Shown here: piece after piece, positions 43,014 to 58,014 of the stretch
Layout of the letters: each line of letters opens with the position of its first letter
How positions within the stretch are numbered: the stretch's first letter is position 1
Position numbers and translations under genes: made by a program
Notes under the pieces: generated by a model
Told to the model about the DNA's origin: nothing
Database searches by the model: none
The model's input: only the letters and a program-made list of their open reading frames with translations
Source of the DNA: Helicobacter himalayensis
Lineage (GTDB): Bacteria > Campylobacterota > Campylobacteria > Campylobacterales > Helicobacteraceae
Assembly: GCF_001602095.1 (NCBI RefSeq)
Contig: NZ_CP014991.1
Coordinates: 992,001 to 1,056,000 of the forward strand
Reading direction: 5' to 3'
DNA: 64,000 bases

Positions 43014-43827
43014 ACAATCCTTTCTCTTTTTTGATTGTCTCTAAAAAGCGATTTTTTGAGAGTTCGCAATACTCTTTATCCAGCTCTATGCCTATAAACT
43101 TGCGTTTATTCAAATATGCTTCTATCATTGTTGTTCCACTCCCGCTAAAAGGGTCGCAAACTACATCTCCTACAAAGGAAAAAAGTTTGATACATCGCTT
43201 AGGTAACTCTCTAGGAAAGGGTGCGGGGTGTCCTATGCGCTTTTTAGATTCTCCATTAAAACTCCATAAGCCATTAGTCCAAGCCATAAACTCCTCTTTA
43301 CTTATATCGCTTTGTCCTTTGTGTTTTTTCTTCCACTCGCCTTTATAAAGCACGAGGATTAACTCAACAGGTGCGATAACATAAGGAGCAGAAGCACTAA
43401 GCCAACTCCCCCACGCAGTGCGCCTTGAGATATTACCCTCATTCCAAATTATTGTGCTGTGATATTTCCAGCCTACTTTTTTAGCAAGAGTTGTGATGTC
43501 TGCTCCCACGCTTTGCTGCCCACCTTTGTTTTTATCAAGCGGGATATTAAGACAGAATCTTGCGCCATCTTTTGCCCAAAAATAACAATTTCTAAGCCAT
43601 TTTTGCGTGAATGCAAGATAGTGTTTATAATCATTGGAATCCGCACTAGAGTTATACTCTATGCCTACATTATAGGGTGGTGAAGTGATAATTAAATCAA
43701 GACTTTGAGGGCTTAGCAACTTTTTATGCAACACAGAATCAAACAATAATGTAGTATTTTCATAGCTAAAAAAACCATTACCTATTTGCACTATATGCTT
43801 AATACGATTTATCTTATCTCTATCCAT
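43003..43827 (-). CDS. DNA methyltransferase, beta-type (TSPPYN)
   Basis: 274 residues. Catalytic motif ITSPPYNVGIEY comes first, and the SAM motif CDPFSGSGTTMIEAYLN last, so motif order is that of beta-class enzymes (N4-cytosine or N6-adenine). Overlaps the endonuclease before it by 8 bases and the HNH gene after it by 11, so four genes (M-R-M-R, 45683-42414) form one compact unit. Confidence 0.85.
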   Translation of the reverse strand: MDRDKINRIKHIVQIGNGFFSYENTTLLFDSVLHKKLLSPQSLDLIITSPPYNVGIEYNSSADSNDYKHYLAFTQKWLRNCYFWAKDGARFCLNIPLDKNKGGQQSVGADITTLAKKVGWKYHSTIIWNEGNISRRTAWGSWLSASAPYVIAPVELILVLYKGEWKKKHKGQSDISKEEFMAWTNGLWSFNGESKKRIGHPAPFPRELPKRCIKLFSFVGDVVCDPFSGSGTTMIEAYLNKRKFIGIELDKEYCELSKNRFLETIKKEKGLFDA

Positions 43828-44587
43828 TTTGAATAAGCCCTAAAATTTCTAATACATCATAATTGTGATTCTTACTTAAGATTCCAAAAATCTTAAAAGT
43901 TTCTAGCAAAAAGTTCTTATCTTTAGAATCTAAAATAAGAGTAGCGCATTCTTTAGATTCTGCTATTCTGCCTAAAAGTAATGGCATATTTTCTTTTGCC
44001 TCTAGCTCTGTAATTGGGAAGCATACATAAAGCATAGGTTGCACACCTATTGCCCTTTGTTTTTCTTTGATTATAATTTCAAGCAAAATATCAAAATTAC
44101 CAAATTTATGCATTAAAAGCGGGTATTTTACTTCGCAATAGTAAAAATTCATATCTAAAATATTTTTACTTGCAGGGTGGCTTCGTAAAATCGATAAATC
44201 AGAGCGAGAATCTAAAAATTCATCACTCTTAACATTGCTTAAAAACTCATATAAATTGCTAATTTCTTGTTGCGTGATTATCTTCCATTGGTAAAAATAA
44301 TATAAATACTCACTTAACTCATAAAGTGCCTTATTTTTGCCATTTGCCCCTATAAAATGTGTCTCTTGTAAGGTGCTTAAAGCAAGTTTTTCTTTATCGT
44401 TTTTATCCACATCATAGCCGATTTGCCATTCAATATAATGCTTTTGAGAGAATGGAATTTGCCTTGTTGGAGTTGGGATTCCATATTCATAAAAGCTATT
44501 TCTCATCTTTACTCTAATCTTGCCACTTTGCGTTGTGAGTGGGAGTTCTATAAAAATTTTATTATTTTCTAATCTTTCAATCCTCAT
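43820..44587 (-). CDS. Probable type II restriction endonuclease
   Basis: 255 residues, family not recognised. A possible PD-(D/E)XK core is LDMNFYYCEVKYP (Asp, then E-V-K). Position supports the call: it overlaps the upstream N6-adenine methyltransferase by 11 bases and nothing else there could be its partner. AT-rich. Confidence 0.6.
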   Translation of the reverse strand: MRIERLENNKIFIELPLTTQSGKIRVKMRNSFYEYGIPTPTRQIPFSQKHYIEWQIGYDVDKNDKEKLALSTLQETHFIGANGKNKALYELSEYLYYFYQWKIITQQEISNLYEFLSNVKSDEFLDSRSDLSILRSHPASKNILDMNFYYCEVKYPLLMHKFGNFDILLEIIIKEKQRAIGVQPMLYVCFPITELEAKENMPLLLGRIAESKECATLILDSKDKNFLLETFKIFGILSKNHNYDVLEILGLIQNG

Positions 44588-45683
44588 AATGCTTTCCTAA
44601 TAATTTTCTAAAATACTCTGTAATTTCTGGGCTTATAGTCTTACTCTCACTTGCTTTGATAAACGCAGATTCTAAGGCTTTAAATTCCTTAAAATCTATC
44701 AAAATATCACAATTCCCCAAATAATAAGGAGTATGGGCAATCATCATTTTAAACACATCAATGTAACAATATAAACTATATTTTTCTTTGCTCACATAAA
44801 TTGTATTGCTATTTTCTTTTGTTATGAAAGTTTTTGAGCGACGCAGGGCGTTAATATCACGCAAAGTGTAAAACATCGCTACTTTTACTTGAGAATCTAC
44901 ACGTTTTTTATTAGGATATTTATCAATATATTTTGCTATAAAATCAAAATCATTAAGCTTAAAAGAATTGCCCTCTAAGGTATGAAAAGTAAAATTTAAA
45001 ATAAAATCATAATCCATTCCCTGATTGTCTCTTTCATACAAAGCAATGATAATAGGAAAATATCCCATAGATTTAGGACAGAAAATAGCAGAGCTAATAA
45101 TCATAGAATCTATCAAGCGATAGTGTTTGCTAAAATCTTTCAATGCCTTAAAATTGCTTTCTTTAATGAGATAGGAAAGTGGGTGAAGCACACAAATATA
45201 ATCCGCCCTTAATGCATCAAAAGAACGCAAAAAGCTAATGCCAATATCACGTGCTTGAAGATGAGAATCCACAGGGGCAGAATTACTATTTTTAAGGTGA
45301 TTTTGCACGATAGAAGTTTTATCATTATAAGGAGGATTGCCTATGATTATGAGCTTGTTAGATTCTGTAATCCTAAATTTGTCTCTTTGGACATCAGCGA
45401 GTGCGTTAGTATGGATAAATAGAGGTTTGGGCGTAAAGTTCTTAAAATTCTCCTTTGCTTGTTTTAAAGCTTTTTCATCAATATCTGTGCCGATATTTTG
45501 CTTAAATCCTTCTAATTGCAAAAAGCTTCCATATCCGCAAGAACTATCAAGCAAAACATAATCTTGTGGATTGTTAATAGAATCTAAAAGCATTTGATAA
45601 GCAATGCCCACGATAGAATCAGGCGTGTAAAAACTGCCTTGATTAATTGTTTGGATTTTGTTTAAATGTGTTTGGATTGTCAT
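44577..45683 (-). CDS. N6-adenine DNA methyltransferase (gamma-type, NPPYN)
   Basis: 368 residues. GSFYTPDSIVGIAYQML (motif X), LLDSSCGYGSFLQ (SAM motif I), LIIIGNPPYNDKTS (motif IV). Starts 15 bases after guaA-tail copy E. The first ~60 bases have a diverged second copy at 49621-49681, where the remainder of the gene is missing. Confidence 0.85.
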   Translation of the reverse strand: MTIQTHLNKIQTINQGSFYTPDSIVGIAYQMLLDSINNPQDYVLLDSSCGYGSFLQLEGFKQNIGTDIDEKALKQAKENFKNFTPKPLFIHTNALADVQRDKFRITESNKLIIIGNPPYNDKTSIVQNHLKNSNSAPVDSHLQARDIGISFLRSFDALRADYICVLHPLSYLIKESNFKALKDFSKHYRLIDSMIISSAIFCPKSMGYFPIIIALYERDNQGMDYDFILNFTFHTLEGNSFKLNDFDFIAKYIDKYPNKKRVDSQVKVAMFYTLRDINALRRSKTFITKENSNTIYVSKEKYSLYCYIDVFKMMIAHTPYYLGNCDILIDFKEFKALESAFIKASESKTISPEITEYFRKLLGKHYED

Positions 45684-45698
45684 TTATTATTTTCTCTC

Positions 45699-45765
45699 CT
45701 ATTCCCACTCTAATTTACCGGGGTTTGCTTGTGCCTGCACCACGCGGTTAATACTAATTGTGTTG
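45699..45765 (-). repeat. guaA 3'-end copy E (decayed)
   Basis: Encodes INRVV-...-PG-..-EWE. CACCACGCGGTTAAT and the CCCACTC end are still shared with guaA; most third bases have changed. Shares CCCACTCTAATTTA with copy D, which sets D and E apart from A-C. Confidence 0.7.
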
Positions 45766-46628
45766 TTTGAATAGTTAAAATAAAAATATTTCATATTGTT
45801 TTCTATTTCAAAATTAGCGATTAAAAGTTCCTTGCCAATATTTGCTTTTTCCTGCTTGTAATTATTCATTCCATATTGCAAAGTCCATTCTTTCACGCAA
45901 AAACCCTTATAAAGCTCTCGTATAAAATTACTATCATCATAAGTTAGCAAAAAATTATGCTTTGTATTTTTAAGATTATCACAAAGTTTTTGATGATTAA
46001 AACTCGTATGCAAATCGCCTTTTTTACCATAGAGTCTTGATTTTGTAGCAGAATAATAGGGTGGATCTAAGAACATAAAGACATCTTTGCCCTCTTTTTG
46101 CAAGAGATTCTCATAGCTCTCATTGCTAAAAATAAAGTTTTGCAAGATTATATCCATATTTTTAAGCCTATCAATGGAGCTTTGTGTAAAGCGAAATTCA
46201 AAAGCTTTTTGCGAATATCCTCCACAATCAACCACTCCACTAAAAGTAATGCGATTAAGCACGAAAAAATCCACAGCCCTTTGAAAATCATCTAAATTTT
46301 CATTCCTGCGACTTAAGATATTCTCATAAAGTTCTCTGCCATTTTTATAATATTTTTTAATGTTTTGAATTGCATTAATCAAAGCTTGATTTTGTGTTTT
46401 TAGGATGCTCCAAAAACAATACACATCTTTATTTAAATCATTTGCGAAAAATTGAATTTGTTTTTGATGTAAAAGATTTTGAGCAAGATAAATCCCCACA
46501 CTTCCACCGCCAAAAAATGGCTCTCTATACTCACTAAAGCTTTGCGGAAAATAATCTTTTAAAATCTTAATCGCTCTACTTTTACCACCCGGATAACGAA
46601 GTGGTGATTTATAGAATCTAATATTCAT
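45699..46628 (-). CDS. D12-class N6-adenine methyltransferase with guaA-derived C-terminal tail
   Basis: 309 residues. PLRYPGGKSRAI, REPFFGGGSVGIYLA and FLDPPYYSATKSR are the Dam/D12 motifs. The enzyme should end soon after KELLIANFEI; instead it runs on about 35 residues into INRVVQAQANPGKLEWE, a decayed copy of the GuaA C-terminus (INRVV...PPGTIEWE in guaA). Overlaps the frameshifted endonuclease by 11 bases. Confidence 0.85.
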   Translation of the reverse strand: MNIRFYKSPLRYPGGKSRAIKILKDYFPQSFSEYREPFFGGGSVGIYLAQNLLHQKQIQFFANDLNKDVYCFWSILKTQNQALINAIQNIKKYYKNGRELYENILSRRNENLDDFQRAVDFFVLNRITFSGVVDCGGYSQKAFEFRFTQSSIDRLKNMDIILQNFIFSNESYENLLQKEGKDVFMFLDPPYYSATKSRLYGKKGDLHTSFNHQKLCDNLKNTKHNFLLTYDDSNFIRELYKGFCVKEWTLQYGMNNYKQEKANIGKELLIANFEIENNMKYFYFNYSNNTISINRVVQAQANPGKLEWE

Positions 46629-47704
46629 TGTTTATCCAAATTTCAAAATGATTTTGTTTGGATTCTATATTTAAGGCTTTTAAGGTAGCAATTTGAGAAC
46701 CAGAAAAAGCATTGTTTTTAATAAAAGAATCCAAATTTTTGCTTGGCAAAATAATACTATCTTGCAAAATGTTTGAGGTTAATCTCAAGACAATTTTAAA
46801 ACTATCATATCTTTCAATTTTTGAGAGATTATTATAAAGCATAAGCTTTAAAAGTCCATCTTTTATATCATCATTACTCGGCAATAATGCGTTTTTACTA
46901 TGTTTGCTCTCGCATAAATACAATGTATCATTTTTGAAAAACACATCATCAATTGTAAAAAAATATTCTCCTCCCAAATAATTATTTATAGTAATTTTTG
47001 CTTTCTTCCCTATGCCTATATTTTCTTTGGGTTGTAAAGTTAAAGCCTCTCTATTTTGAGCTTGTTTTGCCTTACCCCTTGAAAACTCCATAAAAGATTC
47101 TCTATTTTTAGAAATTTTGCATATAAAATTATCTATATTTTGCACATTATGAAGTTTTATTTTTAATGTATGAGAAATATCAATATAAGCATTTTTTGCC
47201 ATTTTTGCTAATTTGGCAAGATTTTCACTGCTTAGCTGATTAAGATTCCAATGTAATGCTGATTGATAATACTTAATAAGTTGCTTGAGTTGATCTAAAA
47301 TATATGCATTATTAAATGCTTGTTTAGTGATTTTACCAGCTTTTTTTTGGGTGAATTTCTGCTTTATCATAAAATCCCAAAATCACATAGATATTTAAAA
47401 GACTCATCAAAGAAATGCTATCCCATTGCAAGTAATCCATATCACCATTAATGCCCTCATCTTTAATAATTGGAATAATGCTAACAATCTTATTTGCATA
47501 GCTATCAAAAGTATCGTACATCCTTGCATAAGGATAAGAGCGGGTGCGCTTAGGGCTAACCCATTTGCTTAAAGCTAAAGTTTTATTTTGAAAATGAATC
47601 AAACACTTGCTGTGCAAAGAATTAATATTTGTAAAAGTGAAGCTTTCCAAATTTTCTTGCCATATTTTTGTATAAGAAAAATTTTTAATTTGTGCTTGTA
47701 ACAT
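46618..47704 (-). pseudogene. Type II restriction endonuclease split by one frameshift at an A8 run
   Basis: First part (47704-47333) has WVSPKRTRSYPYARMYDTFD and IIPIIKDEGINGDMDYLQWD; second part (47370-46618) continues with AGKITKQAFNNAYILDQLKQL, SALHWNLNQL and a nuclease-like core TIDDVFFKNDTLYLCESKHS (Asp, then E-S-K). The join is an A8 run in coding sense; A7 gives PKKAGKITKQ and one ORF of about 360 residues. Either a recent mutation or a slippery switch. Partner of the D12 methyltransferase. Confidence 0.75.
47341..47348. repeat. T8 run (A8 in coding sense) at the endonuclease frameshift
   Basis: Eight T at exactly the point where the two endonuclease frames meet. Confidence 0.8.
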
Positions 47705-47751
47705 AAAACTTCCTTAGGATTCCAATTTAGCCCACAGCTTTGCAATAATTC

Positions 47752-47838
47752 TCTTTATCCACAATGCCGCTCTTTTTCCGCGAATTTTACACTATAAGCA
47801 TTAAATGTGTGATTTTAACAACAAAATCTAGGTGTAAA
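47752..47838. repeat. Direct repeat flanking the Dam-like module, left copy
   Basis: ATTTTACACTATAAGCATTA, TGTGTGATTTTAA-AACAAAATCT and GGTGTAAAA recur at 49547-49629 with few changes. The spacer 47705-47917 contains only this repeat. Confidence 0.8.
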
Positions 47839-47917
47839 AATATCAAATCCATGTAGAATCAGAGATTTACGCAAGGATTCTCGGCTATTATCTTGCAAGA
47901 TTTGATTTGTTAAAATC

Positions 47918-48691
47918 TTACTTTGTGTGCGTAATCCTATACTTTGCACTTGCTTTAAGGCAAATGCTGTTGTAATTATTTATATCCTTAAACTCAAATT
48001 CCCAAATCAAAAATTCACCACCACGCTTTTCAAAAATAACGTTGTTACTTGTTTTTGAGTATGAATACTCCATTGTCTTAGCGGATAATAAAGTTGTCGT
48101 ATGATGATATTTTTTGTTTGAGTATTTTTTTGCCTCTATTAAAACAACTTTATCTCTCCCCTCAAATCCGCTATCTACCTCTGTTTGCACAGAAACTACT
48201 TTGATATTTTTGTAATATTGTGTATCAAAAGAAAATTCCGGCGTGTATTTCCGACCTCGTATGCTTAAAACCAAGCTTTCATCATTTAAAAATGTCCTTA
48301 TAAGAGACGAAGCATAAGCAAAATCTAAATGTTGCATTTGAGAGTTTCCAACTTTTGCACTTTTTAGCTCAAAATCTAATTTGCTTATATAGGTTTCGCA
48401 TTGTGTTTGAATGTCTGGAATATCAACATAACCCTCGCCTTTGCAGATAATATATTCCCCATTTTTGATAGGCAAAATAAAAAGTTCGTTATCAATAAAA
48501 ATCTGTGGTCTATCCTCTCTACTATCTTGCTTGCATAAAATACGCACTTCTTTTTGCGAGACTTTGTGAAAGTCTTTTACGCATTTCTTAATTTGTCCTG
48601 CCTTTAATAAAAAGGGTTCTTTATTAAAATCGTGTTGATACATTTTTAAATCATCATAGATTTTTTGCCAGCTTTCATTATTTTTACTCAT
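47918..48691 (-). CDS. Type II restriction endonuclease (PD-(D/E)XK type), partner of Dam-like enzyme
   Basis: 257 residues. EVDSGFEGRDKVVLIEAKKY gives a good nuclease core (Asp, then E-A-K). The start overlaps the end of the Dam-like gene by 8 bases. GATC-type specificity is possible from the partner but not proven. Confidence 0.72.
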   Translation of the reverse strand: MSKNNESWQKIYDDLKMYQHDFNKEPFLLKAGQIKKCVKDFHKVSQKEVRILCKQDSREDRPQIFIDNELFILPIKNGEYIICKGEGYVDIPDIQTQCETYISKLDFELKSAKVGNSQMQHLDFAYASSLIRTFLNDESLVLSIRGRKYTPEFSFDTQYYKNIKVVSVQTEVDSGFEGRDKVVLIEAKKYSNKKYHHTTTLLSAKTMEYSYSKTSNNVIFEKRGGEFLIWEFEFKDINNYNSICLKASAKYRITHTK

Positions 48692-49541
48692 AATTTCCCC
48701 TAATCAAAAGTTCAGTAATTTCCCCTCTCTTATCGCCCTTACAATTAATCACTCTTTTTGCTTGAATTTCTATAATTTCAAAATCCTTATAAAGTTCTCT
48801 TATAAATTCTGCATTAGAATTGCTTTGTAAAACTTTTATGCCTTTAGAATCTAGCTCCCTAAAAACATTATAAAGCCTGAATTGTTCTTCTTTTAAAAAA
48901 TTATCCGTATAGCTTACAAAGCTAGAGGTTTGGCTAAGTGGATAATAAGGCGGGTCAAAATATACAAAATCTCCCTTTTTAGCGTTTTTGATAGCCATTT
49001 CAAAATCAATATGCATAATGCTCACATTTTTTAAGGCATTATGCGCATTCATAATCAAATCTTTATCATAAATCTTAGGATTTTTATAACTTCCCATAGG
49101 TGTGTTAAACTCGCCCTTAGCGTTGTAGCGACATAATCCGTTAAAACAAGTTTTATTAAGATAAATAAACCTTGCAGCGCGAAAAAAGGGATTGAAATTG
49201 GCAAAGTTTTTTTGTCTATCAAGATTGCGAATGTGATAAAAAGTTTCTTTATTATGCGTATTTTGTAAAATTTCTAGCTCTACTAAAAGTTTTTCAGGAT
49301 TATCTTGGATTGCTTGATAGGCGTTGATAAGCTCTTTATTTTTGTCATTCAAATAAATTTTAGATGCGCATAATCCTTGATTATGCAAAGCAAAAAACAA
49401 AGCCCCGCCACCCACAAATGGTTCAAAATAGCACTTGAAATGCTTTGGGATAAAAGGCATTATCGTATCTATCAACGCCCTTTTTCCACCCGCCCATTTT
49501 ACAAAAGGCTTAGATTCTGCATTTTCAAATGAGTGTTGCAA
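48684..49541 (-). CDS. Dam-like N6-adenine methyltransferase (D12 class)
   Basis: 285 residues. PFVKWAGGKRALID, YFEPFVGGGALFFAL, NKTCFNGLCRYNAKGEFNTP and FVYFDPPYYPLSQTSSF match the Dam/DpnM/EcoRV alpha group. Start is a TTG at 49541 directly after the right direct repeat; no ATG is better. Gene order M then R, opposite to the modules on either side. Confidence 0.85.
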   Translation of the reverse strand: MQHSFENAESKPFVKWAGGKRALIDTIMPFIPKHFKCYFEPFVGGGALFFALHNQGLCASKIYLNDKNKELINAYQAIQDNPEKLLVELEILQNTHNKETFYHIRNLDRQKNFANFNPFFRAARFIYLNKTCFNGLCRYNAKGEFNTPMGSYKNPKIYDKDLIMNAHNALKNVSIMHIDFEMAIKNAKKGDFVYFDPPYYPLSQTSSFVSYTDNFLKEEQFRLYNVFRELDSKGIKVLQSNSNAEFIRELYKDFEIIEIQAKRVINCKGDKRGEITELLIRGNYE

Positions 49542-49546
49542 TATTT

Positions 49547-49629
49547 TATCCTTATGTGACTCTTTTCTGTAAATTTTACACTATAAGCATTAAAAATGTG
49601 TGATTTTAATAACAAAATCTGTGGTGTAA
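49547..49629. repeat. Direct repeat flanking the Dam-like module, right copy
   Basis: Right partner of 47752-47838. On the minus strand it continues the reading of the methyltransferase-start relic next to it (GSFTPQILLL...), so it is itself decayed coding sequence. Confidence 0.8.
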
Positions 49630-49681
49630 AACTTCCTTGATTAATCGTTTGGATTCTATCTAAATGCATTTGGATTGCCAT
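49621..49681 (-). pseudogene. 5' relic of a second copy of the 368-residue methyltransferase
   Basis: From ATG 49681: MAIQMHLDRIQTINQGSF, against MTIQTHLNKIQTINQGSF at 45683. The match then fades. It starts 8 bases after the stop of guaA-tail copy D, as the intact gene does after copy E. Confidence 0.82.
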
Positions 49682-49689
49682 TTCTCTCC

Positions 49690-49769
49690 CTACTCCCACT
49701 CTAATTTAGCCGGTGGTTTGCTTGGCTTGTCTGCATCACGCGGTTAATGCCTTGTGTTTTATTGATGAT
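49690..49769 (-). repeat. guaA 3'-end copy D (relic)
   Basis: In one frame it still reads IINKTQGINRVM, against [13 protein letters not shown] in GuaA, and ends in the shared GAGTGGGAGTAG. It is no longer fused to a gene; it begins 10 bases after the stop of the 316-residue methyltransferase. Confidence 0.75.
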
Positions 49770-49779
49770 ACACTTCTTA

Positions 49780-50730
49780 TCAAGCTTCTAACATTAAGAT
49801 ATTATCAAAAAGATTTATCCTTTCTTTGCCTGTATTTTTTAGTTTTATTTTTTGTATATCAATATGTTTTATGTTTTGTGGAATCTCAAAGTATTTTTTG
49901 AGTCCCTCCCAATCACATTCTCTCAATGTAACAATTTCATTTAAATGAAAGCTCACATAAAATTCTCCTATTTGAGACACAAAATATTCAGAATCTATTT
50001 TGTCTTGTGCAATTTCACAATACTGCTCATCTTTCTCAAAACCTATAAAATTTCTCCCGAGTCGTTTTGCGGCAATTGCTGTTGTTCCTGTCCCTAAAAA
50101 TGGATCTAAAATTGTATCCCCCTCTTCACTGCTCATCAAAATAATCCTCTCTAGCAAATGAATAGGAAGTTGGCAGGGGTGGTTATCTCTATTTTTAGTG
50201 TGTCTTATGCGATGAATATCTGTCCATACATCAGAACAAAGAGGTCCAAAAGGATGCAAAATACCCTTTTTCCCTCCATAGTCTTTAACTAAAATGCCCT
50301 TCCTGTCTCTCTTGTGTGGATAGCGAACTTCTTTAAATCTACTTTTCACCTCACCTTTTGAATAAAATAATATTCCATAATGTGCGGGTTGCAAGGTTTT
50401 TCCCATCGGAGCGGTCATTGCCTCCCAACTTATCCAATGCCTAAACATAGCTTTATCATTGAGAAAATTTGCATAATAGACAAGCCATTTTGGAATATTG
50501 TGCAAAAAAATAAAGCCATCATTTTTGAGTACTCTTACACATTCGTTTATCCATTTTTCACACCATTGCAGATATTCAGATTCTAAGAGTTTATCTTTAT
50601 GGGAATTGTATTTTTTTTTAAGATTAAAAGGTGGGTCGGCAAAAACGCAGTCTATACTATTACTTGGAATTTTTTTTAATAATTCTAAACAATCACCTTG
50701 TAAAATTTCATTCATAGGTAAGTTTTTCAT
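49780..50730 (-). CDS. DNA methyltransferase, beta-type (DPPF)
   Basis: 316 residues. CVFADPPFNLKKKY (catalytic) precedes ILDPFLGTGTTAIAAKRLGR (SAM site), so beta order; the DPPF form suggests N6-adenine. A C-terminal extension of about 80 residues may be the target-recognition part. Three bases after the endonuclease gene. Confidence 0.84.
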   Translation of the reverse strand: MKNLPMNEILQGDCLELLKKIPSNSIDCVFADPPFNLKKKYNSHKDKLLESEYLQWCEKWINECVRVLKNDGFIFLHNIPKWLVYYANFLNDKAMFRHWISWEAMTAPMGKTLQPAHYGILFYSKGEVKSRFKEVRYPHKRDRKGILVKDYGGKKGILHPFGPLCSDVWTDIHRIRHTKNRDNHPCQLPIHLLERIILMSSEEGDTILDPFLGTGTTAIAAKRLGRNFIGFEKDEQYCEIAQDKIDSEYFVSQIGEFYVSFHLNEIVTLRECDWEGLKKYFEIPQNIKHIDIQKIKLKNTGKERINLFDNILMLEA

Positions 50731-50733
50731 TTT

Positions 50734-51702
50734 TTACACCTTAAAAATATTTTTAAGCATTAATTCAAATCGTTGTAATTCATCACAACGAAAAGTAAAA
50801 ACTTCATCATAAGCCTCAACCATACGCCTTAAATCTTGTTTGCGAACATACCAGCCAATCCCATCAATAAATCCATAAAACTTAGCATTTGGATAATGCT
50901 TTTTAATCAACATTCCTACTGTAATCTCTGTTTTTGCCTTATCGCCTTGCCCAGAACTTGTTGTGCTTAAAAAAGAGGATTCTATAATAATTTGCGGATT
51001 TTGTTTATTCGGAATAATAAAATCCATAGTGCGTTTGCTAAGGTTTTCATTTAAACCTAAAAGTGGCAAGTCTCCACTATCATAATAAATAGATAAACGA
51101 GAGAGAATTTCTTTAATCGTGGATTCTGGATTATTCTGCATAGCACCTGAATAACTCCCTTTTTGGCGATAGCGAATAAGTGTGTCAATCATTGCATTTT
51201 TATCAAAATTAACTTTTTGTAAATTTAATTTATTGAGTTCAAATAAAGGTAATGTTTTAGCCAAAAAGGGGTTAGATGAGCCTTGAAAAAAGAGATTAAT
51301 GAGTCCTTTTGCAAAATTTTCATTATTTTTAATGAGATTTTTTATTTTTTTATCACCCCATTCTTTTAAATCTGTCTCAGTATTATGTGTATTCCAATGT
51401 TGCATATTAAGAAGCATTGACAAATCATTATCTTTTACGATTCGTGCAATCGTAATAATTCTTTTGAGGTTTTCATTAGCAATACCATTAAGCACGAGTA
51501 AAGCTTCTAATCCAAATTCATTTGTTTGTATAAAATTGACAAAAACCTCTTCTTTACAGCCTTGATTTAAGATTTGATTTTGCAAATTCAATAGTAAAGT
51601 CTTTATAAGGTTAATTGTGTTTGCCTCATAGCTTTCTTCAAATTGTGAATTTGAAAAATAAAAAGAGTTTTTCTCAATCACAATATTATATTTCTTACTC
51701 AT
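50734..51702 (-). CDS. Type II restriction endonuclease
   Basis: 322 residues. RQKGSYSGAMQNNPESTIKE and MDFIIPNKQNPQIIIESSFL followed by TTSSGQGDKAKTE look like a PD-(D/E)XK variant (Asp, then E-S-S, with Lys later). Starts 9 bases after the stop of guaA-tail copy C. Partner of the next methyltransferase. Confidence 0.7.
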   Translation of the reverse strand: MSKKYNIVIEKNSFYFSNSQFEESYEANTINLIKTLLLNLQNQILNQGCKEEVFVNFIQTNEFGLEALLVLNGIANENLKRIITIARIVKDNDLSMLLNMQHWNTHNTETDLKEWGDKKIKNLIKNNENFAKGLINLFFQGSSNPFLAKTLPLFELNKLNLQKVNFDKNAMIDTLIRYRQKGSYSGAMQNNPESTIKEILSRLSIYYDSGDLPLLGLNENLSKRTMDFIIPNKQNPQIIIESSFLSTTSSGQGDKAKTEITVGMLIKKHYPNAKFYGFIDGIGWYVRKQDLRRMVEAYDEVFTFRCDELQRFELMLKNIFKV

Positions 51703-51711
51703 AATCTCCCC

Positions 51712-51823
51712 CTACTCCCACTCAATTGTGCCCGGTGGCTTAGAAGTGATGTCATACACCACGCGGTTAATGCCCTCTACTTCATTGATGATTCTATTGT
51801 TTGCAAATTCTAAAAAACTAGAA
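51712..51823 (-). repeat. guaA 3'-end copy C (fused in frame)
   Basis: Bases 51714-51789 are identical by eye to 55929-56004 of guaA (76 bp); similarity then fades over about 35 bp. Confidence 0.9.
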
Positions 51824-52974
51824 TCTAGCACTGCATTTTCTAGGCTTCGTTGTGAAAACAAAAATCTTCCATCGCATACAAATCCAAGCTCCTCCCAATC
51901 AACATTATTGAGCCTCTCACATAATATTCCCAATATCACAGAATCCACCTTAAATTTTGGAAAAACTGCTAGGACTGAACCATCATAAGCCTTGCATTCG
52001 TGAATAAAAAATGGCTTTTTATTGCGCGTTTTAGTATTGACATAAATGCGTGATTTTTCACTTTTATAATAATCCCTTCCCCATTCCCACCAATTTTCCT
52101 CATTGAATTTTTTAATCCTCCGCCTTAAAAGCTGCCCTTTAAAATCTTGTAAATACGCACAATTTTTACCATAGATTCCATAAATCATTTTTCTCGTTTT
52201 GCCACTTTTAGCAGTAGTAGAATTTACAAATTCCACATTACCAACCTCTTCATTTGTAAAGATAGAATCTGCACCACTTACTGCTCCAACTTTGACAAAA
52301 AATAAATCTTTAAAAGGAATCGTGTAGGCTTTTTTAGTGAAAAGTAGCTGTCCATTTACACAGGAAAACTCTCTTAAACACTGCGTCTTGCGAGTAAAAT
52401 TATCCTTTTCAAACCTCCAAATCGCACAATTTGGCTGGGCATTGTCAAAAATCTTTTTATCACCCAAATCAATAAAATGCGTGATACTACCTTGAGAAAA
52501 TAAAAACTCATTTAAACGCACACTTGAGGTTGATTTCAAAAAATCTCGTGGGGTAATAAAAATCAACTCTCCTCCCTCTTTTAAGTGCAAAATACATTTG
52601 TAGATGAAAAAAAGATAAAGATTTGAGCGAGAATCAAAAAGCCTAGAATAAGGTTTAAGAAGTGTCTTTGTAGATGTAGCAATATCTTGATAACGCACAT
52701 AAGGCGGATTCCCAATAATGCAATCAAATTTTTCATTCACAGGATAGCCAAAAAAATCTTCTTGCAAAACCGCCTTATCACAAACTACACTAGAATCTAT
52801 TTCAATACCCACTTTATTTTTAGGTAGATTTTCAAAAAACGCCCCATTGCCACAGCTTGGCTCTAAAAATCGCGGATTTTGTAGAATCTTTGTGCTTTGA
52901 ATGAGGCTTAGCATATCACTTACAATATAGCTTGGGGTAAAAACCTGCCCTAAAGTTTCTACATTAAGATTCAT
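51712..52974 (-). CDS. N6-adenine methyltransferase (gamma-type, NPPY) fused to a guaA tail
   Basis: 420 residues from the ATG at 52974 ([18 protein letters not shown]); the longer reading to 53004 is not needed. [15 protein letters not shown] and [13 protein letters not shown] are the SAM and catalytic motifs; [17 protein letters not shown] marks the natural end of this family. Then the frame runs straight into [20 protein letters not shown] and the full GuaA C-terminus PPGTIEWE. So the last ~37 residues come from guaA. Confidence 0.87.
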
Positions 52975-53596
52975 AAAAATATCTCCTAAAATGCAAATAA
53001 GCATCAGCTCTAAGTTTTAAAGATTCCTCAAAAGTTCCAAGTAAAAAAGCTTTTGCACTTTCAAAATCTCTATTTATCAGTTTGCGATTATTGTCCCATT
53101 TAGCTTGAAAGGGGAGATTGTTGCCATTTGGCAAGATAGATTCTAAACTTTTTAACGAAGTAGCAAACACATCACTAGGATTATCTTTGTTTATAATTAA
53201 AAAATAATAATCCTTGCCATTTGGTTCTAGATTCTCACTTAAAGTTTTGAAATATATTTCCCAGCTTACACCATTATTAAAAGGTGGAATTTTACCTGTT
53301 AAGGCATAATAGATTCCTAGTTTGCAGTTGAGATTATCAGTTGTTTTTGTCGTGCTAACTTTAATATTTACAGGATAAAATACATTATTTTCATAAAAAC
53401 TAAAATCTACCCAATCACGCATATTTGGGTGATTTATTACAAATTTTGATTCTAAAAGTCTAAAAATTTCATCTTCGTTAAAAGCTGAATTTATCCGCCC
53501 ATCACGACTTTGAGTGCTTAGTTGTAAGTTTTGTTTTTTAAGAAAAACTACTATGTCATTTAATAGATTTGGCAATGTGGTTTTGTTTTCACTCAT
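52964..53596 (-). CDS. Type II restriction endonuclease (PD-(D/E)XK-like)
   Basis: 210 residues. [20 protein letters not shown] then KVS gives a nuclease core with Asp and N-I-K. It starts 3 bases after the stop of guaA mini-ORF copy B and overlaps its methyltransferase by 11 bases. Family not named. Confidence 0.68.
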
Positions 53597-53599
53597 TCC

Positions 53600-53803
53600 C
53601 TACTCCCACTCAATAGTTCCCGGTGGCTTAGAAGTGATGTCATACACCACGCGGTTAATGCCATCTACTTCATTGATTATGCGATTACTCACAGATTCTA
53701 AAAAGCTATGTGGCAAATGCGCAAAACTTGCTGTCATTCCATCTAGTGCCTCCACTGCACGCACACAAATGGTATTATCATAAGTGCGATTATCGCCCAT
53801 TAC
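53600..53803 (-). repeat. guaA 3'-end copy B (about 204 bp)
   Basis: Aligns without gaps to 55927-56130 with only scattered substitutions. Confidence 0.92.
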
Positions 53804-55926: not shown

Positions 55927-56130
55927 TTACTCCCACTCAATTGTGCCCGGTGGCTTAGAAGTGATGTCATACACCACGCGGTTAATGCCCTCTACTTCAT
56001 TGATTATGCGATTACTCACAGATTCTAAAAAGCTATGTGGCAAGTGTGCAAAACTCGCAGTCATTCCATCTAGTGCCTCCACTGCACGCACACAAATGGT
56101 ATTATCATAAGTGCGATTATCGCCCATTAC
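55927..56130 (-). repeat. guaA 3'-end, resident copy A
   Basis: The genuine 3' end of guaA, source or recipient of copies B-E. The bases after its stop run into the BsaWI-like gene. Confidence 0.9.
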
Positions 56131-58014
56131 TCCCACACTGCACACATTTAAAAGCACGCAAAATGCCTGCCAAACTTTATCATAAAGCCCCGCCTTATAA
56201 AGCTCTTCTACAAAGATAGAATCCGCCTCGCGCAATAAATCTAAATCCGCCCTATTCACCTCTCCCATAATGCGAATAGCAAGTCCGGGTCCGGGAAATG
56301 GATGGCGCATAAGCATAGATTCTGGCATTCCTAGCTCCCTGCCTAATGCCCTCACTTCATCTTTAAAAAGCTCTCTTAAAGGCTCTATTAACTCAAATTG
56401 CATCCATTCAGGCAACCCGCCTACATTATGATGGCTTTTTATCGTCTTAGATGGTCCTTTCACGCTTACAGATTCTATCACATCGGGATAGAGTGTGCCT
56501 TGTGCTAGGAATTTTATCTCACCCTTTGCATTGTGCTTTTTTGCCTCTTTTTCAAAGACTTCTATGAAAGTCTCGCCGATGATTTTACGCTTCATCTCTG
56601 GGTCAATCACACCTTTAAGCCTCTCTAAAAACAACACACTCGCATCACACACAATCAAAGGCACTTTTAAGTTTTCTTTAAACATCTTCTCAACTGCCTC
56701 TCTCTCACCTTTACGCAAAAGCCCCGTATCCACAAATACAGGGATAAGGGCATCTCCTATGGCATGATATAAAAGCGTGGCAACAACGCTAGAATCCACC
56801 CCACCACTTACAGCGCATAAGACTTTTTGCCCTAGTTTTTGCGCGTTTTTAGAATCCCAAGATTTTCCAAAAACTCTTTTTCTTAGTTTTATAATCTCTG
56901 TTTGAGCAAAATTACGCATATTCCAGCTTGTATCCGCACCACAAATTTGCAGGGCAAAATTCTTTAGAATCTCCCCTCCGCACTCACTATGCACAACTTC
57001 AGGGTGAAACTGCAGTGCATAAATGTTTTGCTTCAAATTTGCTATCGCGCAATAATGCGTGTTCCCAGACTTTGCAAGCTCTACAAAACCTTGCGGGATA
57101 GATTCCACCTTATCAGCGTGGCTCATCCATACGATAGAATTCTGCTTAACATTATGAAATAAAACATTATGCGATTTTAAAGCACTTGCTAAAACTGCAT
57201 TTGAAACTTCCAAATGCACAATTGCAAAATCCCTTCCTTGAGAATCTTTTGCACTTCTGCCTATCTCTTTAAATCCTAATTTCTGGTAGAATTTTAGCCC
57301 CCGCGCATTATCTGCATTGCAATCTACTACAATGCTATCAAACTGCTTCAGATGTCGCATAAATGCTTCACGCAATAATGCCCTCCCCACACCACGTCTA
57401 AAAAACTTCGGATGCACAAAAAGCATTTCAATACGATTGTGCTCTACTCCAAGAAAGCCTAAAAATGTCTCTTCATCAGTTGCTACAAGTGTATTTTTAG
57501 ATTTTTCCAAAAGCGCATTAACATCGTTTTTAATTTCCAAAATAGCATTCTCTGTTAAAAATTCGTGGCTATCTCTAACAGAATCCTCCCACAAATCCAC
57601 AAGTGCCACCTTTGGCATTTTTTTATGGTCAAATTCACTAAAAGTTAAATTCTCTTCTATATTGAGAATCTCCAAAACCGCCTTGCCAAACTCTTGCGCC
57701 TCTGCCCTCACCACAGAGCCACCAAAAAAATGCGCGATATATTGCATACCATAGCAAATGCCAAGCACAGGGATTCCTAACTCAAATATCCTAGAATCAG
57801 GCTTATATGCGCCCTCTTCATACACGCTAGCAGGTCCTCCGCTTAAAATAATGCCTTTAGGTTGCTTTGCCTTAATAGAATCTAGTGTTTCAAAATACGG
57901 AACAATCTCTGTATAGATTCCATATTCGCGCAGTCGCCTAGCGATTAATTGCGTGTATTGAGAGCCAAAATCCAAAACCAAAATTTCCACATTTGCTAAA
58001 AAATCTTGTCGCAT
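55927..58014 (-). CDS. guaA: GMP synthetase with a nested GNAT acetyltransferase domain
   Basis: 695 residues against about 510 usual. GATase part 1: [20 protein letters not shown], nucleophile Cys87 in GICYGMQY. Then residues ~126-278 are foreign: [35 protein letters not shown] and VGRALL, and [14 protein letters not shown], a complete GNAT fold with the acetyl-CoA loop RRGVGR. GATase resumes at [16 protein letters not shown] and FHPEVVHSE (His337, Glu339). ATP-PPase P-loop SGGVDSS at ~403 and the C-terminal dimer domain ending PPGTIEWE are intact. Makes GMP from XMP; the GNAT role is unknown. Confidence 0.93.

Follow-up and report, generated by a model that had tools for sequence, protein, structure and literature searches.

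Restriction-modification units bounded by guaA-tail copies in Helicobacter himalayensis, and the likely insertion of a Dam-like pair into a fused relic among them

When restriction-modification (R-M) systems are inserted, roughly 100 bp of the target can become duplicated, as described in two papers (PMC3874152, PMC3031569; citing Nobusato et al. 2000, Furuta et al. 2010), and in H. pylori an R-M pair with a flanking direct repeat may have entered another R-M cluster by such a long-target-duplication insertion (PMC4978471). Genomic islands, GIsul2 among them, form a second point of reference, since according to one report they integrate at the 3' end of guaA by site-specific recombination (PMC9376610).

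The locus described here, in a window of 64,000 nucleotides from the Helicobacteraceae genome of Helicobacter himalayensis (G000:C1:992001-1056000), shares features with both. As in the R-M insertions with long target duplication, a gene pair is flanked by what appear to be target-derived direct repeats of ~100 bp, again in the Helicobacter family, but the apparent target is an already decayed fusion of a methyltransferase gene (M368) and a TIR-like gene within an array bounded by guaA tails. Read in this way, the inner insertion matches a mechanism already described for R-M genes. The array also has guaA as its landmark, as the islands do. Unlike the islands, whose attachment site is short, it is built on a repeat that is the coding tail of the gene, 60 to more than 100 bp long, and no integrase was recognised among the part of the array proteins that was scanned. 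Within the openly licensed papers searched, we found none on a tail-bounded R-M array at guaA.

Behind guaA, R-M genes follow in series on the same strand as guaA, and in this stretch the guaA 3' tail can be recognised in five copies (Table 1); the genes form an array of type II R-M units, each bounded by a copy of the tail. M368 and the PabI-type gene, for example, belong to known methyltransferase and restriction endonuclease families (PF07669/PF02384 and PF09522) and lie side by side, and we class them as a type II R-M system. R361 had no Pfam match, and the frameshift that splits it reflects either slippage (phase variation) or decay. The D12 gene has a different end in the relatives G114 and G086 than in the window. 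Another array gene, M430 (51712-53004), encodes a methyltransferase of Eco57I type that ends in ~40 residues of the GuaA C-terminus (PF00958); an equally long ORF with a GuaA-tail end is present in G086, G114, and G070.

Table 1. Positions of guaA, its tail copies, the R-M genes and the relics within the window, listed in the reading direction of the array
Feature	Position	Strand	Evidence
guaA (GMP synthase), array head; the repeats derive from its 3' tail	55927..58014	-	ORF, tail repeats
guaA 3'-tail copies, first three	55927-56050; 53597-53723; 51709-51830		
R322, restriction endonuclease of DpnII type, in the unit upstream of tail D	50734..51702	-	PF04556
M316, N6/N4 DNA methyltransferase, R322 partner	49780..50730	-	PF01555
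guaA-tail copy D, variant lineage with CAGACA...AAATTAGAGTGGGA	49682..49775	-	tail comparison
Relic A, start of an M368-type methyltransferase gene (~32 codons) in the G114-like allele	49584..49683	-	alignment
Direct repeat copy A, flanking the Dam-like pair upstream in reading direction	49536..49631	-	score 98 vs 31
M285, Dam-family N6-adenine methyltransferase; TTG start inside repeat A	48684..49541	-	PF02086, TIGR00571
R257, DUF6996/DUF6997 protein, presumably the restriction partner of M285	47918..48691	-	PF22518, PF22515; paired homologues
78-nt spacer between R257 stop and repeat B	47840..47917	-	sequence search
Direct repeat copy B, flanking the pair downstream in reading direction	47740..47839	-	alignment
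Relic B, M368 codons ~18-32, G114-like allele	47795..47839	-	score 70 to G114, 20 (chance level) to own M368
TIR-like gene, remnant 3' end	47727..47759	-	score 50 to G086 TIR-R361 junction, 0/2000 shuffles
R361, putative restriction gene, frameshift-split at A8 tract 47341-47348	46618..47704	-	open 361-codon gene in G114, G086
D12-class adenine methyltransferase, with tail E as its last ~20 codons	45699..46628	-	PF02086, TIGR00571
guaA-tail copy E	45692..45772	-	tail comparison
M368, intact Eco57I/N6-type adenine methyltransferase	44577..45683	-	PF07669, PF02384
PabI-type restriction endonuclease, M368 partner	43820..44587	-	PF09522, E=5e-52

When the C-terminal 87 residues of GuaA were used as a query against 121 genomes of the family, at least 15 of them, spanning five genera, had more than one match to the tail; this count takes in the genome of the window (G000) and leaves out G032 and G080, where the matches seem to come from a single fragmented guaA gene. 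Mapping of the fetched loci showed that the tail-bounded units recur and that their order varies. The recurring units are R210-M430 (with the GuaA-tail C-terminus), R253-M429, M532-R248, R322-M316, R281-M305, TIR-R361-D12, M368-PabI, and M274-HNH, and for many of the units Pfam nuclease families could be identified (DpnII, TdeIII, BsaWI, PabI, Tsp45I, HaeII, and CfrBI types). In one genome (G040:C3, L049), guaA is followed by tail-bounded type II pairs that include Tsp45I-type and HaeII-type nucleases, and the tails there are nearly identical. The first gene of TIR-R361-D12 (L047:9806-10495) encodes a CAP12/Pycsar-type TIR domain (PF10137), an odd companion for a restriction pair.

The neighbours of the units that matter most here could be placed in several relatives. 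In G046, G054, and G059 a homologue of M368 immediately follows guaA itself, and in G040 such a homologue follows a duplicated tail; the PabI partner of an M368 homologue is followed by a tail in G111 and G086; and TIR-R361-D12 lies downstream of a tail in G114, G086, G044, and G081. D12 is followed by M368 in G114 and G086, with no significant tail between the two genes in either genome by a shuffle test. A decayed tail had been suspected at this joint from the alignment, the best case being G114 against tail D, but it too fell short of significance (95/3000). The tail at the D12-M368 joint was thus either lost in G086 and G114 or gained in the window.

We consider it a plausible if tentative proposal, at somewhat under even odds, that the guaA-tail copies serve as shared recombination sites through which Helicobacteraceae species gain, lose, and exchange whole R-M pairs as units behind guaA without an integrase, with the scars described below as by-products. 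Homologous recombination between the tails would have moved the units, possibly following the uptake of DNA. In a search for a plasmid or phage vehicle, the tail query gave only guaA-like matches from other bacteria at less than 80% identity, and there was no Helicobacter vehicle among the matches listed.

A first-pass annotation, made from the sequence alone, had described two nested pairs of repeats around the Dam-like genes, and both are real and far above chance. The outer pair, which comprises a guaA tail plus a methyltransferase start (45617-45770 and 49616-49765), aligned with a score of 142, compared with a mean of 20 and a maximum of 33 in 300 shuffles; the inner pair scored 98, compared with a maximum of 31 in 2000 dinucleotide shuffles. 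The relic of the methyltransferase start that had been placed after tail D is indeed present, but it extends for ~100 bp, to M368 codon ~32, instead of the ~60 bp originally given. Its best alignment is with the M368 of G114 (score 110), whereas against the window's own M368 the score is 74 and the likeness ends at ~68 bp.

The outer repeat had been taken as the record of one of at least two successive insertions with long target duplication. In the fullest form of this explanation, R361-D12 entered a tail-M368 unit and duplicated the tail together with ~32 M368 codons, the left copy then took in the Dam-like pair, which brought a further duplication, and recombination eventually overwrote the start of the intact M368. 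A simple duplication predicts that tails D and E should be each other's closest match, as they are (92%), and over M368 codons 1-17 Relic A is about as near the window gene (46/54) as it is to G114 (47/54). The window M368 is also a mosaic in its first ~115 codons: compared with G086, identity is 67-78% over ~45850-45370 (one step reaches 82%) and mostly 82-93% around it, so that the difference between the M368 alleles could have arisen after a duplication. However, over codons 20-32 (39 nt, within relic B) the relic agrees with G114 at 34 of 39 positions and with the window's own M368 at only 23, which is the level of unrelated orthologues, and joints between a tail and M368 occur without any such history in the four genomes noted above (G040, G046, G054, and G059). 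The explanation also requires the extra overwriting event and the insertion of a truncated piece of TIR-R361-D12. A third relic, consisting of a tail end and a G114-like M368 start, lies 760 kb away at C1:1804192 (L093:4195-4300), where it adjoins another methyltransferase; its tail part scored 29 (0/3000 shuffles). Because the arrangement recurs in other genera, the joint alone does not report a duplication: a tail followed by an M368 start is a standard unit joint and by itself no sign that R361-D12 was inserted with target duplication. The recurrent boundary, the different alleles, and the distant relic together weaken the case for an outer target duplication, and the outer scar is probably better read as a unit boundary plus a deletion. 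We regard the outer duplication as unlikely, and leave it some weight because D and E are mutual best matches and a later event may have overwritten the start of the intact M368.

The inner repeat, reported at first as 85 bp, is slightly longer, at about 100 bp. In the reading direction, copy B consists of M368 codons ~18-32, a short shared stretch, and the last codons of the TIR-like gene, and is followed by R361; in the relatives, it is the TIR-like gene that precedes R361. Copy A has the same stretch preceded by M368 codons 1-17, and runs into M285; it resembles the TIR end indirectly, through copy B only. The description of the inner repeats as decayed methyltransferase sequence is therefore right for about half of their length (47795-47839), and 47727-47759 is TIR 3' end instead. 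This latter assignment depends on the relative used: beyond the match to G086, the comparison with the TIR 3' end of G114 was equalled in 7/2000 shuffles, and those with G044 and G081 were at chance. The second relic has the TIR 3' end as its last part, so a deletion probably fused M368 to TIR. Read together, these alignments suggest that the fused M368-TIR relic existed first and that ~100 bp of it now flanks M285-R257 on both sides.

The pair itself has homologues elsewhere. R257 matches only DUF6996/DUF6997, and some plasmid homologues lie at features annotated as DNA adenine methylase. A protein with the same domains as R257 is encoded between two tails in G086 (L048:6870-7646), where it has a different methyltransferase partner. 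Homologues of the whole pair are found in G044, G047, G075, and G085, and in each case the DNA homology is limited to about 49529-47932, with the repeats not shared. At this locus the pair is absent from the relatives G114 and G086. The first-pass annotation had called for a relative lacking the Dam-like module and carrying a single copy of the repeat; these two genomes have no pair and a single intact M368, but the M368/TIR fusion is in neither, and no genome was found that has the fusion without the pair. The flanking repeats, the homologous pairs whose homology stops at the pair, and the relatives that lack it at this locus all support the inner insertion, and of the two insertions first proposed it is this one that stands: the Dam-like pair was likely inserted into the fused relic with a target duplication of ~100 bp. 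The spacer downstream of R257 gave no convincing match in its own genome or in the family. The best of its weak matches, in G001 and G002, lies next to a primase-like gene in an unrelated part of the chromosome, and we take it as chance. That the ~100-bp repeats are no target duplication at all, and that the Dam pair came by homologous recombination with a homologous relic on one side, would suit both the shuffling of array units between genomes and the lack of a convincing match for the spacer, but is decidedly improbable, as neither M368 nor TIR sequence is present at the ends of the homologous pairs and the two repeat copies overlap exactly where target duplication predicts.

We therefore return to the reading in which units joined the array, a deletion followed, and the Dam pair was then inserted with target duplication, and to this sequence of events as a single history we assign a probability of roughly 0.6. 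Units with the variant tails D and E would first have joined the array, so that a G114-like M368-type unit stood after tail D, beside TIR-R361-D12, with tail E and today's intact M368-PabI beyond. A deletion, perhaps a single one, would then have run from M368 codon ~32 into the last TIR codons and removed most of the first M368 unit together with the TIR gene. M285-R257 would next have been inserted into the fused relic, with ~100 bp duplicated on both sides and the target providing the first codons of M285, and the repeat copies would since have decayed to ~88% identity.

The locus thus presents an R-M array with a nest of events that can be put in order, namely the joining of units, a deletion, and an insertion that duplicated its target, while relatives show the units intact. 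Shared by several genera, a tail-bounded R-M array at guaA would be a natural system in which to ask how R-M systems come and go without a dedicated recombinase.
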